From a virus: DNA of 20,718 bases. Below, piece after piece: positions 4,202-20,718 of this stretch. The notes under the pieces are model-generated. The model made no database searches. It was given only the letters and a program-made list of their open reading frames with translations, and was not told where the DNA came from. The stretch lies in the IMG/VR virus record IMGVR_UViG_3300020146_000009, positions 1-20,718 of that record; one strand, given 5' to 3'. The first letter of the stretch is position 1; each line of letters opens with the position of its first letter. A program made the position numbers and the translations under genes.

Positions 4202-4641
4202 TTTATAACGAACCCCCCGGCTCCAGTGTCCAGCGCATCGTTATAGATCGCAAGGTAAAGCGAGCCGGCAACGATATCGTTTGTCGTTGCCTGCGATGCG
4301 CCATTGGTCTTGTACGCCTTGAGCGTTGACAGCGTGCCGTCCCTGGGCACCACAGTCATCGTAACGTCGCCCGTTGAAGTGTTCGCTGCAACAAACGAAA
4401 ACACCTCATAATCAACGTATTTTTCGATCAACGGCGAGGCATCGAGCGGCGTCAGCGTTATGACGTTGGTCCCGGATGCGTTGCATGGCGTAATCCGGTT
4501 CATGCCGACGATAAAGCCGTGCATCTGCGCAAGAAGCTGCAGCCCGTGTTCCGTCAAACATCCCGTCTTGATATCGACAACCGGGAATAGCCCGTTGGGC
4601 TTCGGTATCGGCCTTCCGATGGCAGCGGTTGCGATGCTCAT
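4198..4641 (-). CDS. Small beta-rich tail/structural protein (gp26 slot), 147 aa
   Basis: The first 45 residues carry a pattern I recall from phage tail-adjacent proteins (VVDIKTGCLTEHGLQLLAQ), a short helix before a beta domain. Residues about 50-147 are Thr/Val/Ala-rich beta strands (ITLTPLDASPLIEKYVDYEV, then VTMTVVPRD), ending in GAGGFVIK. Start and stop overlap the neighbours (ATGA and GTGA). The position directly after the gp10-like protein corresponds to the tail needle gp26 in P22. However, gp26 is a long trimeric coiled coil, and no heptad region is visible here, so this may be a plug, a short knob or a fibre-attachment domain instead. The function is inferred from position only. Confidence 0.65.
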   Translation of the reverse strand: MSIATAAIGRPIPKPNGLFPVVDIKTGCLTEHGLQLLAQMHGFIVGMNRITPCNASGTNVITLTPLDASPLIEKYVDYEVFSFVAANTSTGDVTMTVVPRDGTLSTLKAYKTNGASQATTNDIVAGSLYLAIYNDALDTGAGGFVIK

Positions 4642-6041: not shown

Positions 6042-6976
6042 TCGGGGGCGAACTGAATGGAGAGCAATTCCCTCTCCCACCAATTGGCTTCATTGAGGTA
6101 CTGAGCCGCGCGGCGCTCGATCCTGGTACGTTTCGGCTCCGGCACGTCGTATTCGTCGGCGATCTCGTCAGCCAAACCCCACACAATGGCCCTGATCCAT
6201 TCCTGAGGAAGGTCCGCGTCATCGCCAGCGACCGTGAAATCCTCAATCGGCTTGGCAACCGTCATCTTGACGGCATTGTCAACCGTTGCCGGCGCCTGCC
6301 ACAGGTAGAGGTAGCCAAGGGAGTTCTCGCGGCGATCATAATAGAAGGCATTGATCGCGCCTTGGGCCGACTTGTTCGGCATGTTCTGGTATTCGAGCCG
6401 GTCCATTTCCTCGACTGGCGTATCAATCGCGCTGTCGAAGTTGTAGCTGCGGGCAGACAGGATCTTGAGGGGGCGGACAAGGTTCGTCTGGTAGCAGATC
6501 ACCCGATTGCCGATAGCGGCATCATCGGTAAGCGCGGCTGTAAGGGTGACAACCTGACCGGCCGGGGCGCCGTTGACGGTCGTCCAGTGCATCGTACCGT
6601 CGTCAAGCTCAACGCCGATTTTATAGGTCGTCGCAATGCCAGTGACGGAATCGACCGTGATCGTTGAGGCTCCGCTGGATGCAGCAACGTCAAGTTCTGT
6701 CTCCACCCAGCTTTCCGTGGCGTGATCGGTTGACGTGCTACCCAGCGAATAGCGGACCTGATCGACCTGAGGGAACAGAACAGCCTCAACCGTCTTGTAA
6801 ATCTGGATACCGTTGCCCTGCCAGTGCTTGAGCATCGTGTTAAGGGCTTCGGCAGCATCGTTCAAACTGTCGGAGTCCGGCGTTTCGCCCGCCTCAAAGG
6901 CGTTGACCTTGCGCAGGGCTGCCTTGATCAGTTGATCCCGGTTACGGGAGAATGTTGCCGTGCCTGACGTGCTCAT
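6038..6976 (-). CDS. P22 gp4-like tail accessory / head-completion protein, 312 aa
   Basis: The N-terminal helix pair (about residues 11-55: RDQLIKAALRKVNAFEAGE, then DAAEALNTMLKHWQGNG) is the hallmark of the gp4 family, which forms the ring that extends the portal. The C-terminal part returns to it with DLPQEWIRAIVWGLADEIAD and a helical tail. Between them, about residues 80-165, is a Val/Thr-rich beta domain (TITVDSVTGIA, VELDDGTMHWTTV). This makes the protein nearly twice the length of P22 gp4 (166 aa). I recall the same inserted domain in other environmental short-tailed phages. P22 gp4 also has muramidase activity, which I cannot judge here. Both ends overlap neighbours by ATGA. Confidence 0.85.
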   Translation of the reverse strand: MSTSGTATFSRNRDQLIKAALRKVNAFEAGETPDSDSLNDAAEALNTMLKHWQGNGIQIYKTVEAVLFPQVDQVRYSLGSTSTDHATESWVETELDVAASSGASTITVDSVTGIATTYKIGVELDDGTMHWTTVNGAPAGQVVTLTAALTDDAAIGNRVICYQTNLVRPLKILSARSYNFDSAIDTPVEEMDRLEYQNMPNKSAQGAINAFYYDRRENSLGYLYLWQAPATVDNAVKMTVAKPIEDFTVAGDDADLPQEWIRAIVWGLADEIADEYDVPEPKRTRIERRAAQYLNEANWWERELLSIQFAPE

Positions 6977-15236: not shown

Positions 15237-16780
15237 CAGTAGCCCGTCACGCTCGATCGGCCGCGGTCGCGGTTCGGATCATCCTCGTCATCCTCGTCCC
15301 AATCCGGCGCAACCGGCTCTGCAAATGTTAAAGCTACCGCGTCCCACTCGTCCGGGCTCGGAACCTCGCGGCGACGCATGTCTTCCTTTTTCTCAAGGAC
15401 CAGCCTGGTGTTGCTGTCCCACTTGTAGGATGGCCCGCAGGCATCGGCCTGAAGACTGTCACTATCAGGAATATCGGCCCCCGCAGGGTCTTCCAGCCAC
15501 TCCTTGGACTTCATCCACATTTCAGCGCGACGGTTGAGTGGTCCGCCACCCTCCGGCCGCTCAGGCTCAAGAGGAGAGCCGCCGAAGTTGATGGCGCGCA
15601 CCACGTCGCCGTAGCCCATTTCCCGCAGCCGGTCATACACACCAGCGCCCACGCCGCCGACATCGATAAACAGCCGCTTCGGCTTCTGCGTATCGATCAC
15701 GTGCTTGGCCCAGCCCGCCGCCTGCATGGTATCGAGCTTGGTGCGGCTATCGACCTTGAGCAATTTGCGACCGCGCCGGAAGGCCATAGAAGCCCTGTCA
15801 ACGCCCATCCACGCCGGATCGAACCCAACCACCAACGGACCAGATGGCTCACACACGGCCTTGCGCGCCTTGGCAACAAGGGCTGGCGGAATGTAGGCAT
15901 CATGCCCGCTCATCTGGAACGCCTCGGCGGCAGTCGCCGGGTATTCCTGCTTGAACAGGATCGGGTCTTTCAGCTCCGAAATCTTGTTCCGGCGCCAGAC
16001 GACCTGCTCTAGCTCAAGCCCGTACAATTCAGCGTATTCGCGCTCCTCCTCGTCCGGCTCAAAGCCTGGCGGAACATCCTTGCGGTATTCCTCTTGCCAG
16101 TACCAAGGGACGAAGATCGCGATATAGTCGCTTATGCCATTCTCAGCGTCGCGCCACTTCTGATGAAAGAAGTTACCAACGCCGTTTGCCGTGCTCTCAA
16201 GTATGACTTCGGTCCCGATCTCATCCGGCACGGCCTGCAGCACCCCCGCGGCGTGTGTCTCGGCATGAGGCCAGAACGCAACCTCTGACCCGTGGAATAG
16301 CTGCAGCGTTGAAGAGCGCCCCACGCCCTTTGTGCCGGCCGTTCCGATCTTGTAGCCCGAGTCGAGCTTGTCGAAATTCAGTTCCTTGGCATTCGCGGCC
16401 CCCGTCGAGGGCTTAACCAAGGTCTTGCAGTGCTCGTGATAGCGGTTGACCATCTCGAACAGGTTCTGCGTCGCAGCATCCTCATGCGTGAGAATGAACG
16501 TTCTAAGGCCCCGCCCATGCGTTGTGCGATGGTAGAACCTTGCACCCACATAGGTCGAGCAGCCCTGCTGCCTGCCCTTTAGAATGAGAGCACGAACCCT
16601 TCCAGTTCTAGACCTCTGCTCCTCAAGCCTGGTGTGGATATATCGCTGCGCCCGATTGAACATCAGCGGGGCAACAGCGCCCGCTTTGGTCCTGATCTTC
16701 AGGCACTTAAGCGCGTAGTGCTCTAAATCATCCCTCAGCCGCTGGCGTATCGTCCGCTCGCGGTCCGTCATCAAGCTCAT
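15236..16780 (-). CDS. Terminase large subunit, 514 aa
   Basis: This is the ATPase/nuclease motor that cuts and packages DNA. The N-terminal ATPase shows Walker A at about residues 68-76 (KGRQQGCST), a Walker-B-like strand ending in LFHGSEVAFW at 161-170, and the coupling motif ESTANG at 195-200. The RNase H-like nuclease follows, with acidic residues in VVGFDPAW (D321), LFIDVGGVGAG (D373) and SPDEWDAVALTFAEP (about D477-D480). The C-terminus is an acidic run and a short Arg/Gly tail. The start codon lies 53 nt inside the small-subunit gene, preceded by GAGGA; an ATG 9 nt downstream is an alternative. All expected catalytic residues seem present. Confidence 0.92.
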   Translation of the reverse strand: MSLMTDRERTIRQRLRDDLEHYALKCLKIRTKAGAVAPLMFNRAQRYIHTRLEEQRSRTGRVRALILKGRQQGCSTYVGARFYHRTTHGRGLRTFILTHEDAATQNLFEMVNRYHEHCKTLVKPSTGAANAKELNFDKLDSGYKIGTAGTKGVGRSSTLQLFHGSEVAFWPHAETHAAGVLQAVPDEIGTEVILESTANGVGNFFHQKWRDAENGISDYIAIFVPWYWQEEYRKDVPPGFEPDEEEREYAELYGLELEQVVWRRNKISELKDPILFKQEYPATAAEAFQMSGHDAYIPPALVAKARKAVCEPSGPLVVGFDPAWMGVDRASMAFRRGRKLLKVDSRTKLDTMQAAGWAKHVIDTQKPKRLFIDVGGVGAGVYDRLREMGYGDVVRAINFGGSPLEPERPEGGGPLNRRAEMWMKSKEWLEDPAGADIPDSDSLQADACGPSYKWDSNTRLVLEKKEDMRRREVPSPDEWDAVALTFAEPVAPDWDEDDEDDPNRDRGRSSVTGY

Positions 16781-17036
16781 CTAGGGCGTCCTCGTGACGC
16801 AATGTCATGTCGCCGGAATGCTCAACGGCAGCCAAGCGCGCATGCACATAGGGAGCCGCTGCCTTTGCGGCCTCAAATCGGTCTTCGGTCGAAAGAGATT
16901 CGTTTCTCATCAAGCCCAGCATGTAATCGAGGGGGCTTATCCCGCCCTCAAGCGCCTGTTCTCTGGCCTGCTGGTTTAGTTTGGTCGTCTGGCCCGGTTT
17001 GCGTCCCGCGCCCCTTCTAGCTCCACCGTGCGCCAT
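16728..17036 (-). CDS. Terminase small subunit-like protein, 102 aa
   Basis: The N-terminus MAHGGARRGAGRKPGQTTKL is the basic GARxGAGRKxG lead seen in many small terminase and terminase-associated proteins. It is followed by a helical core at about 20-75, with LEGGISPLDYMLGLMRNES and RFEAAKAAAPYVHARLAAVE. That block is very typical of this family in proteobacterial phages. The C-terminal 25 residues are acidic and overlap the large-subunit gene. It should bind the packaging site and recruit the large subunit. The position directly before the large subunit supports this. The DNA-binding target site is not known. Confidence 0.82.
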   Translation of the reverse strand: MAHGGARRGAGRKPGQTTKLNQQAREQALEGGISPLDYMLGLMRNESLSTEDRFEAAKAAAPYVHARLAAVEHSGDMTLRHEDALDELDDGPRADDTPAAEG

Positions 17037-18262: not shown

Positions 18263-18853
18263 TTAAAGGCTGATGTTCCGGTCTGCGATAACGCCGCAGA
18301 GTTCAACAAATGACTTCATGGGCAGATCACCTTTCATGAGGTTCACCACCTGCGCCACGATCTGGATGTTATCGGGCACATAATTGCCGCGGCTGTCGAT
18401 TCTATCGACGCTCGGAGCGAAGTGAGCTTTATTCCCCCGCCCAGCCTTGCCGACGCTCTTCCAATTCAATTCCAAGCCGGTGATGGCGCAATAACCGCCC
18501 TGCTTAAACCATTGTCCAAGCAAGTCATCCTTGTCCACGCCGACCATGATCCCGCGGGAGGCGGCCCCAGCCTTAACCCGCGTCAACTGCTTCTGCCAAA
18601 AGCGATCAAGAGCCGGAGAATAATCAGGATGGTCAACCCACTCACCCTTCCTCTGCTGCCGACAGGTATGGCAATGCAGATGAAGCGCGAAGACGGTTTT
18701 CCGGCCCCTTCGGACCTCACCCATCAAGGCAAACTGCTGTTCTGGCATCGTCCGTTTGCAGCGGACGCATGTAAACTTCTGGTCTACCCGCCCGTCAAAG
18801 GCATAGACAAGATGGGCAGTTTCTTTTGTGTATTCGTATGGCTGACTGAACAT
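18263..18853 (-). CDS. HNH-type endonuclease with zinc-finger N-terminus, 196 aa
   Basis: Two Cys pairs, FTCVRCKR (C29/C32) and HCHTCRQQ (C61/C64), form a likely zinc finger at residues 28-66. The nuclease core follows: YCAITGLELNW at 121-131, then PSVDRIDSRGNYVPDNIQIV at 147-166 and NLMKGD at 171-176. This is the SxDRIDxxxGYxxxNxQ form of HNH/treble-clef nucleases seen in many phages, where Asp-Arg replaces the usual first His; N162 and N171 are probable active-site or structural residues. HNH enzymes upstream of terminase can assist DNA packaging (HK97 gp74), or act as homing or degradation nucleases. The ATG at 18853 has AGGGA upstream. A terminator lies just before it. Confidence 0.8.
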   Translation of the reverse strand: MFSQPYEYTKETAHLVYAFDGRVDQKFTCVRCKRTMPEQQFALMGEVRRGRKTVFALHLHCHTCRQQRKGEWVDHPDYSPALDRFWQKQLTRVKAGAASRGIMVGVDKDDLLGQWFKQGGYCAITGLELNWKSVGKAGRGNKAHFAPSVDRIDSRGNYVPDNIQIVAQVVNLMKGDLPMKSFVELCGVIADRNISL

Positions 18854-18905: not shown

Positions 18906-19017
18906 CAAGCCCAAATGTTGCAGCGTGGTTTTGGTACCACATCCAGCACCGGGTGCAATATTTATTTACCGTTTCGCACATTATTCACGGGATTGTGAAT
19001 CGCGGCCCTCAAACGGC
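18906..19017 (-). promoter_or_regulatory. Candidate regulatory region between replication and late genes
   Basis: This 112-nt space before the terminator holds three inverted repeats: 18925-18940 (GTGGT-N6-ACCAC), 18946-18956 (GCACC-G-GGTGC) and 18983-19000 (ATTCAC-N6-GTGAAT). A local AT-rich block lies at about 18957-18969 (TATTTATTTACC on the plus strand). I cannot point to a convincing -35/-10 pair, so a promoter here is an inference from the dyads, the AT block and the change of gene module. Confidence 0.5.
18983..19000. repeat. Inverted repeat ATTCAC-N6-GTGAAT (possible operator)
   Basis: A perfect 6-bp dyad with spacer GGGATT, in the intergenic region before the terminator. Five of six spacer bases match the dyad at 18141-18158. 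The layout is that of a dimeric repressor or activator site. Confidence 0.5.
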
Positions 19018-19272
19018 TCAAGTCTTCAAAATGCTTGTCAAAGCAGAGGAGCCGGCTCCGGCTAACGCATCTTCCAGTCGGTCCGATATTGCATTCATTG
19101 TATCTGCAAGCGCGCCTTGCACGGCTCGTTCAATGTGAGCCGTGATATCAATCTCTTTTGTCAAAACCGGGTTGATACTGATGTAAACGCCGCCCTCTGG
19201 CGGGCTGGAATGTTCGTGCTCCCAGAACTGAAGTACCAATCGCTCATCCTTCTCAAGAATAAGTAACGTCAT
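19018..19272 (-). CDS. Hypothetical protein, 84 aa
   Basis: From the ATG at 19272 the protein reads MTLLILEKDERLVLQFWEHE, then SPPEGGVYISINPVLTKE and a helix HIERAVQGALADTMNAISDR. It seems a small alpha/beta protein: two strands, a loop and an amphipathic helix. The family is not recognised. I prefer 19272 to the upstream in-frame ATG at 19323, because 19272 creates the operon's usual ATGA overlap with the previous gene, whereas 19323 would bury 17 residues inside it. It is the last gene before the regulatory gap and terminator, so a role in late regulation is possible but unproven. Confidence 0.62.
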   Translation of the reverse strand: MTLLILEKDERLVLQFWEHEHSSPPEGGVYISINPVLTKEIDITAHIERAVQGALADTMNAISDRLEDALAGAGSSALTSILKT

Positions 19273-19877
19273 CTTCCACTCTCCATCGAAAAACCATAAA
19301 CCAGCGCTAAGCAATCCAAACATTCCCGAAAGCGCATCCCGAAGTATTCCTCCCAGCGCTTGCCTTCCAATCCCCTAGCCGCCGCAACCTGCTTACGGGT
19401 CTTGGAATCAATTAGAACGTCCTGGGCGAGCGCAGATCCAATCTGGCCCAAAGCAGCATGGGCCGCGTTTAGCCTATCAAACGCCTTGCTATAGGCTTCT
19501 GAGATGCCTCTGGCCTTGAAGCTCCGATCCACGAAGGGTTGCGACAGGTCGATCGCCTGCGGTCGGGACTGGATCGTCTCAAAATCGTCCTGAAACGCGC
19601 GGCCGGCATGGAATTGGAATTCCGTCACCATCTTCCGTTCGTACATATCCCCCAAGGGATCGTCCCGCGTTGACCGGGATACCCTGATCTTTTCACCTGG
19701 CTCCAAGGCGTATGGGTCATCTACGTCGGTATAGATGATGAACGGAACGACGGCGTTGCTCATCGTTTTTGCCCGCCTATCGTGAACCTGCGGCTTGTTC
19801 GGATCATACGGCTTCTGTCGTTTTGCTCTCGCCACTGTCTGCCCCTTCGTGATGCTGTGATGATCGAACGCGGTCAC
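19269..19877 (-). CDS. Phage protein of unknown function in the replication module, 202 aa
   Basis: The N-terminal 40 residues are basic and polar (ARAKRQKPYDPNKPQ), then a beta-like segment VVPFIIYTDVDDPYALEPGE. The C-terminal half (about 85-198) is helical: FHAGRAFQDDFETIQSRP, SEAYSKAFDRLNAAHAALGQ, SKTRKQVAAARGLEGKRW, FRECLDCLALVYGF. This order resembles the DUF6456-type domain I recall from rhizobial proteins, but the match is weak. Its start is GTG overlapping the initiator's stop (GTGA); a second GTG at residue 15 is possible. Being just upstream of the region that ends in a terminator, it could be a transcription regulator, though no antiterminator motif is recognisable. Confidence 0.65.
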   Translation of the reverse strand: MTAFDHHSITKGQTVARAKRQKPYDPNKPQVHDRRAKTMSNAVVPFIIYTDVDDPYALEPGEKIRVSRSTRDDPLGDMYERKMVTEFQFHAGRAFQDDFETIQSRPQAIDLSQPFVDRSFKARGISEAYSKAFDRLNAAHAALGQIGSALAQDVLIDSKTRKQVAAARGLEGKRWEEYFGMRFRECLDCLALVYGFSMESGR

Positions 19878-20718
19878 TGTGTAGCCAAAAGCTTTTTGAC
19901 GCCCTCAAGCATCGTCTCTTCGTAACCAGGCGGCCACTTCGATGGAAAGCGCCAGCCGCCGTGTTTGTCGCGTGGGTATCCCTTGCCGATCGTCTTGCGG
20001 CCGTAGTCGTCCCAAGCGTCAAGCTGCCGCTGGTCGCGAACGTCTATCAGGCCATCGTCTTGCACGAAAACCGCCGCAGCATGATCCGTCCATCGCTGTT
20101 GGCTGAGCCACGTCACAGCCTGCGGGATAAACCGCGTTCCGATGTTTCCGCGCCTGGATTCGTCAATCGATAGCTGCTTGGCGCCAGCGATCATCACATC
20201 TGGATCAACCCCGGTTTTGGCGAGGGCTGAGAATTTCTGTTCGGCCGGCTTTCGTGGGTTCGGTCCATCCCGTCGAGGGAAAGACCTCCAAAATTCCTCA
20301 AATTTAGGATGCTCACCGGGTCGCGTCGCGTCAGCGACCGACCGAGAGTTAATTTCCTTTCCTTTCCTTTCCCCTTCCTTTCCCTTCCCTTCCCCTTGTG
20401 CAGACTTAAGGGGCGTGGCTGGCGCGTCGTCCACGCGTGCCTCACGCGTCAAGGCATTGATATCGTTGGGCGCGGGTAGATCGGACGCTTTTTCGCGATT
20501 GTTGATTACCTGGTGTGTGTGCCAGCTAGGTATGCAGCCGTATTCCTTGCCATCAACTTCGTACTTCACGATAAAGCCACGCGTCAGCAACGCGTCGAGC
20601 ACGCGTGAGAAGTCGCATTCGTCATATGGGAGGCAATCAAGCTTTAGCTGGCGCGGCGCCCAACGGAATCGCCCTTCACGATCGGCGGCGGTCCAGAGCC
20701 CAGCAAACGCGAGCCGGA
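19874..20718 (-). CDS. Replisome-organizer-like initiator protein, 5' end beyond window
   Basis: The frame is open to the right edge, so the N-terminus is missing. The visible N-terminal domain is a winged-helix type block: GRFRWAPRQLKLDCLPYDE, CDFSRVLDALLTRGFIVKY, then YGCIPSWHTHQVINNRE. That form is common in phage replication initiators that recruit helicase. A low-complexity Lys/Gly/Glu linker (GEGKGKEGERKGKE) follows, then a second conserved block FEEFWRSFPRRDG, KPAEQKFSALAKTGVDPDVM and QAVTWLSQQRWTDH, typical of the C-terminal part of these proteins. A GTG at 20602 is an internal codon, not the start, because the conserved block continues upstream of it. The gene also carries phased DNA repeats and a pyrimidine tract, a possible origin as in lambda O. 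Confidence 0.8.
   Translation of the reverse strand, partial: RLAFAGLWTAADREGRFRWAPRQLKLDCLPYDECDFSRVLDALLTRGFIVKYEVDGKEYGCIPSWHTHQVINNREKASDLPAPNDINALTREARVDDAPATPLKSAQGEGKGKEGERKGKEINSRSVADATRPGEHPKFEEFWRSFPRRDGPNPRKPAEQKFSALAKTGVDPDVMIAGAKQLSIDESRRGNIGTRFIPQAVTWLSQQRWTDHAAAVFVQDDGLIDVRDQRQLDAWDDYGRKTIGKGYPRDKHGGWRFPSKWPPGYEETMLEGVKKLLATQ
20353..20397. repeat. 45-nt homopyrimidine/homopurine tract
   Basis: The plus strand holds only T and C for 45 nt, built from imperfect CCTTT and CCCTT units; the minus strand is GGAAA-like. It encodes the Lys/Gly/Glu linker of the initiator protein. Such tracts can form triplex DNA and are easily melted or slipped. Confidence 0.85.
20411..20454. repeat. 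11-bp phased repeat array 1 (candidate iterons)
   Basis: ACGCGT starts at 20433 and 20444, preceded at the same 11-bp step by degenerate copies GCGCGT at 20422 and GGGCGT at 20411. The step is not a multiple of three, so codon repetition cannot create it. Confidence 0.6.
20579..20611. repeat. 11-bp phased repeat array 2 (candidate iterons)
   Basis: Three exact ACGCGT palindromes start at 20579, 20590 and 20601, again 11 bp apart (about one helical turn). They lie in the part encoding the conserved winged-helix block of the initiator. Confidence 0.65.

Follow-up and report, generated by a model that had tools for sequence, protein, structure and literature searches.

In phage lambda and the Stx phages 933W and P27, iterons lie centrally in the initiator gene O together with an AT-rich stretch (PMC7466680, PMC6022878). 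The in-gene iterons of lambda encode the segment joining the N-terminal to the C-terminal part of the protein, which is lengthened by extra iterons (PMC7466680), and each is about 18–19 bp long with hyphenated inverted symmetry (PMC6022878). The Rep proteins of iteron plasmids bind specifically to a single strand of the opening region, which carries repeats (PMC4081077), and G38P of the Bacillus phage SPP1 is described as a replisome organizer, i.e., an origin-binding protein, that acts at a discrete origin (PMC3485210). Here, two arrays of the hexamer ACGCGT were analysed within the replication initiator gene of the IMG/VR virus record IMGVR_UViG_3300020146_000009; the whole stretch (20,718 nucleotides, ending with the record at 20718) is hereafter called the window. 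We infer binding and origin activity, and consider it very likely that the arrays are the iterons of a phage replication origin located within its own initiator gene.

Array 1 (20579–20606) consists of three ACGCGT hexamers at exact 11-bp steps, starting at 20579, 20590, and 20601. Array 2 (20411–20449) lies in the linker region and consists of hexamers at 20433 and 20444, continued in phase by the degenerate copies GCGCGT at 20422 (one mismatch) and GGGCGT at 20411 (two mismatches). All of these positions had been given in the original prediction and were recovered here. The degenerate copies are fairly counted because relatives, L200 and L205 among them, hold exact hexamers at the site matching 20422. 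The gene carrying the arrays (19874–20716, minus strand) had been read as a replication initiator, with which the PHROG profiles agree (PHROG 16167, E = 1.2e-37; PHROG 270, E = 3.5e-25; both replication initiation protein, with the match spanning the N-terminal domain). Each of the three hexamers of array 1 is read in a different frame and encodes a different peptide, and hence there is no peptide repeat. With two further isolated copies at 567 and 10566, the window holds seven ACGCGT against 5.8 expected, which is ordinary; what stands out is their clustering and the 11-bp step. The codon-shuffled control suggested with the original prediction, run here as synonymous recoding (20,000 trials, the phage's own codon usage), gave for the window gene a mean of 0.56 hexamers, five or more hexamers at a frequency of 5e-5, and three or more exact 11-bp pairs in 0/20,000 cases.

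Both arrays are retained in the closest relatives, which are a prophage of Bradyrhizobium and contigs from metagenomes (77–79% identity across almost the full protein), and in many at 55–70% identity, and array 2 in the linker is found in relatives as well. For the null test across the family, 58 non-redundant homologues (43 to 62% GC in their loci) were picked by two peptides encoded outside the arrays; a larger set of 124 rows was left out of this test because many of its rows had been picked for the hexamer triple. At least one exact 11-bp pair is present in 55/58 homologues and at least three in 44/58, with a mean of 3.05 pairs per gene compared to 0.017 after synonymous recoding. Distances of up to 40 bp between neighbouring hexamers are 11 bp (177 times), 22 bp (24 times), 34 bp (5 times), and 12 bp (once). 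The codons of array 1 read TCA CGC GTG CTY GAC GCG TTR NNN ACG CGT, and their choice is nearly invariant (Ser TCA 47/47, Ala GCG 48/48, Leu TTG or TTA 49/50, Arg CGT 44/45), while in the window's phage TCA makes up 6% of Ser codons and CGT 11% of Arg codons. Substitutions in array 1 mostly leave the hexamer intact, e.g., Asp GAC to His CAC (six cases), and changes of Ser TCA to Ala GCA or Glu GAA retain the A of the hexamer. The hexamer thus persists while amino acids change, and therefore the constraint acts on the DNA. Across the family, both the hexamer and the 11-bp spacing are maintained at the DNA level, as the original prediction had thought likely: both are kept in the homologue alignment that it had suggested, and the recoded genes do not reproduce them. 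The distance between the arrays varies among relatives, and array 2 keeps its 11-bp step at variable positions; a fixed helical phase between arrays 1 and 2 was considered and rejected, as this phase varies too.

A scan by motif alone, i.e., for three ACGCGT at an 11-bp step in 2.9 million viral contigs, returned at least 120 stretches. Among the matches listed (120 contigs), 105 encode the N-terminal domain of the initiator, overlapping or adjoining the array, and the remaining 15 have neither this domain nor a purine tract (see below) and resemble background. The control scan with a 12-bp step gave 24 stretches with the initiator domain in 0/24, and a 10-bp step gave 15, of which 10 come from a divergent clade within the initiator family. 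A 10-bp-step ACGCGT clade with the same purine tract after the array comprises L151, L160, L162, L150, L153, L154, L155, L159, and L161. In the records of a first set of relatives, all 11-bp pairs were confined to a single site spanning under 250 bp (20/20).

Next to array 2 lies an element that was absent from the original prediction, a pure purine tract of 45 nt with GGGAA-type repeats on the coding (minus) strand (20353–20397; polypyrimidine on the plus strand). No other such run in the window is as long (the next reaches 18 nt), and the tract is a candidate strand-opening or single-strand binding element. Most relatives carry a G/A tract of about 30–60 nt after array 2, usually 5–50 bp away, in which G and A runs are mostly 2–3 long. 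Codon choice in the tract differs from that elsewhere (Gly GGA/GGG 96% vs. 41%, Arg AGG 84% vs. 9%, Glu GAA 95% vs. 53%), and therefore the DNA leaves its mark on the low-complexity linker (GEGKGKEGKGK) too. The strand-pure GGGAA tract is maintained at the DNA level too. A G-quadruplex pattern was matched in the tract region of 56/103 genes, which is suggestive only.

The window's initiator gene has lost its 5' end at the contig end and is about 28 residues short compared to relatives, whose full-length proteins start MARIRSIKPEFF. Its N-terminal part (20474–20716, minus strand) is predicted to be an iteron-binding winged-helix domain, based on an AlphaFold2 model of the aligned domain (mean predicted local distance difference test score 87, predicted template modelling score 0.79) and on its Foldseek neighbours, which are viral replisome organizers and putative replication proteins including one of Ralstonia phage RSK1. 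Secondary structure of the model mapped onto the alignment places the predicted recognition helix (residues 64–73 in the numbering of relative L004) at 20582–20611 (minus strand), overlapping array 1. The C-terminal region (19874–20350, minus strand) is helicase-loader-like, as judged from PHROG matches over residues 109–221 to replication proteins, primosomal proteins, and helicase loaders of the DnaD type. A profile search of Pfam matched no family to the window initiator, a sequence search of the PDB gave nothing useful, a fold search of the PDB gave generic winged helices only and no significant E-value, and PADLOC found none of its systems. An Endonuclease VII-like/HNH gene lies near the initiator (18263–18853, minus strand; PHROG 3322 and 1035).

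Unrelated C-terminal domains are exchanged after the tract: the parts following it in 123 sequences fall into 30 single-linkage clusters, and in relatives they match O-like, DnaD-like, and primosomal proteins in PHROG. The initiator gene of the window's phage shares about 78% nucleotide identity with that of three relatives, and outside this gene only one weaker stretch is shared (15891–16796, 67%), with L004. L022 and L264 have a GCACGTG-like iteron core and retain the GGGAA tract, and a distant clade (Pseudomonas, Acinetobacter, Hafnia, and Frateuria phages) has TGATTCC repeats at the position of the tract; in L024, L191, L193, L196, and L197 these repeats encode SLIPDSLIPDS, and their complement reads GGAATCA. 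Two candidate specificity determinants were rejected. Residue 101 is N or P in 98/103 ACGCGT members and 0/10 GCACGTG members, which amounts to 2–5 independent pairs on the tree and is not significant, and the recognition-helix residues R66 and R74 track the presence of array 1 and not the iteron type. In-frame endonuclease domains occur inside the initiator linker at the iteron site, namely HNH domains in L022, L274, and L193 and a domain in L125/L266 judged by eye to be GIY-YIG-like, as though mobile nuclease genes inserted at the origin linker.

That the hexamers result from chance or from coding constraint, i.e., from a conserved peptide combined with codon usage, has next to no probability. 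Most relatives do conserve the peptide SRVLDALxTRG, and CGCG words are abundant in GC-rich genomes, but for the family this explanation is refuted by the recoding controls, by the invariant rare codons, and by the non-synonymous changes that spare the hexamer. It also fails to account for array 2, which holds its step at variable positions, and for the SEDI clade, which has linker iterons without SRVLDALxTRG. Alternatively, the arrays could be operators at which the initiator binds its own gene and represses or blocks transcription, with replication starting elsewhere. Their location within the initiator's own gene would fit such autoregulation, and so would the further array that one relative (G031/L112) carries immediately upstream of where the gene begins. 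Operators, however, usually lie at promoters, and these arrays lie 200–430 bp into the gene; array 2 is tied to a strand-pure tract, the upstream array is exceptional, and control binding can coexist with origin function. We regard pure autoregulation as improbable. A function as a partition, packaging, or other phage site bound by a protein other than the initiator appears very improbable: centromere-binding proteins of the winged-helix type (e.g., TubR) figure among the weak fold matches and two Vibrio-type phages have scattered extra pairs, but the arrays accompany the initiator N-terminal domain even where phages have almost no other nucleotide similarity. On the N-terminal tree, moreover, the iteron core type needs 6 changes vs. 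68 for the C-terminal type, a descriptive comparison since the two labels differ in their number of states.

Several observations weigh against an in-gene origin. A few relatives of a second set (the related Vibrio-type phages G033 and W01, and also W03) have extra pairs elsewhere in the genome. The GC-skew switch that the original prediction had proposed to look for did not appear consistently at the arrays in seven relatives. Whereas classic opening regions are AT-rich, the tract is not (mean AT fraction 0.44–0.51 in the tract and 0.41–0.47 after it, 92 genes), and no helicase gene was recognised beside the initiator in the window, L005, L014, and L017. In favour of an origin, Vibrio phage 1.131.O, in which the linker array is present, has a DnaB-like helicase gene directly downstream of the initiator. 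The single 11-bp pairs far from the initiator were located at 6961, 20084, and 25522 in W01 (VvAW1) and at 4216, 17109, and 20227 in G033, and two distant pairs have an identical spacer sequence in both phages.

The comparison with lambda made in the original prediction holds for the layout and fails for the protein family, the iteron type, and the AT-rich region. As at ori-lambda, initiator sites are repeated mid-gene with a special tract after them, array 2 lying here in the linker between the winged-helix and C-terminal domains. Unlike ori-lambda, the unit is a 6-bp palindrome, ACGCGT, repeated each 11 bp instead of an 18–19-bp iteron with hyphenated inverted symmetry, one array lies inside the codons of the DNA-binding domain, and a polypurine GGGAA tract is found with no adjacent AT-rich opening region. 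The N-terminal domain matches no O family, although the C-terminal parts of some relatives match O-like PHROG families. Because three defining features (iteron type, AT-rich region, and O homology) fail, the locus is filed as an in-gene phage origin variant and not as a member of the lambda type. The RK2 (TrfA) and F (RepE) plasmid origins are alike in placing direct repeats beside a repeat-bearing opening region and provide a model for the strand-asymmetric tract. Iteron plasmid origins have longer iterons outside the gene, an AT-rich opening region, and DnaA boxes that are used. Here, in contrast to RK2 and F, no DnaA box lies near the gene: none (TTWTNCACA-like, up to one mismatch) was found at 19000–20718, and the window holds 14 vs. 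15.6 expected. The scheme of an organizer plus an origin is also shared with G38P and oriL of SPP1, whereas sequence family and sites differ. By profile, the window protein is a member of the PHROG 16167/270 replisome organizers, whose C-terminal half varies widely. For this family, no origin or iteron description was found in the literature searched, and ACGCGT iterons in phages were likewise not described there, with most subscription journals being outside its coverage.

For an in-gene origin, the following mechanism is proposed. The N-terminal winged-helix domain would bind ACGCGT at one unit per helical turn and on one DNA face, since the 11-bp step is about one helical turn and the palindromes hence face one side. 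Like O at ori-lambda, it would coat the two arrays and form two nucleoprotein arrays, one over the codons of the domain's own recognition helix and the other in the linker. These arrays may strain and open the DNA at the adjacent purine tract, one strand of which may be held by the initiator, and the C-terminal domain would then load the replicative helicase at the opened tract. Plasmid Rep proteins hold one strand of the opening region, and the strand-pure tract beside array 2 would suit being held in this way.

A broader reading, which we put forward tentatively as a possibility, is that of a self-contained and widespread module, in which the DNA encoding the recognition helix doubles as an iteron array, GGGAA repeats serve for opening, and the tract acts as the joint for swaps of helicase-loading domains. 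Distant clades would have changed the core (GCACGTG) or the tract (TGATTCC) and kept the plan. Such a module might open its strands at the GGGAA repeat instead of at an AT-rich region, through an R-loop, a G-quadruplex, or binding of one strand.

For a large set of phages and prophages, most of them uncharacterised (at least 105 contigs by iteron pattern alone), the arrays provide an origin sequence that can be tested, and the ACGCGT pattern at 11-bp steps together with the purine tract could act as an origin finder. The findings also suggest an opening element without AT-richness. The changes of iteron core between clades are material to map initiator specificity. For the family itself, strong selection at the DNA level acts through the DNA-binding helix and the linker of the protein.
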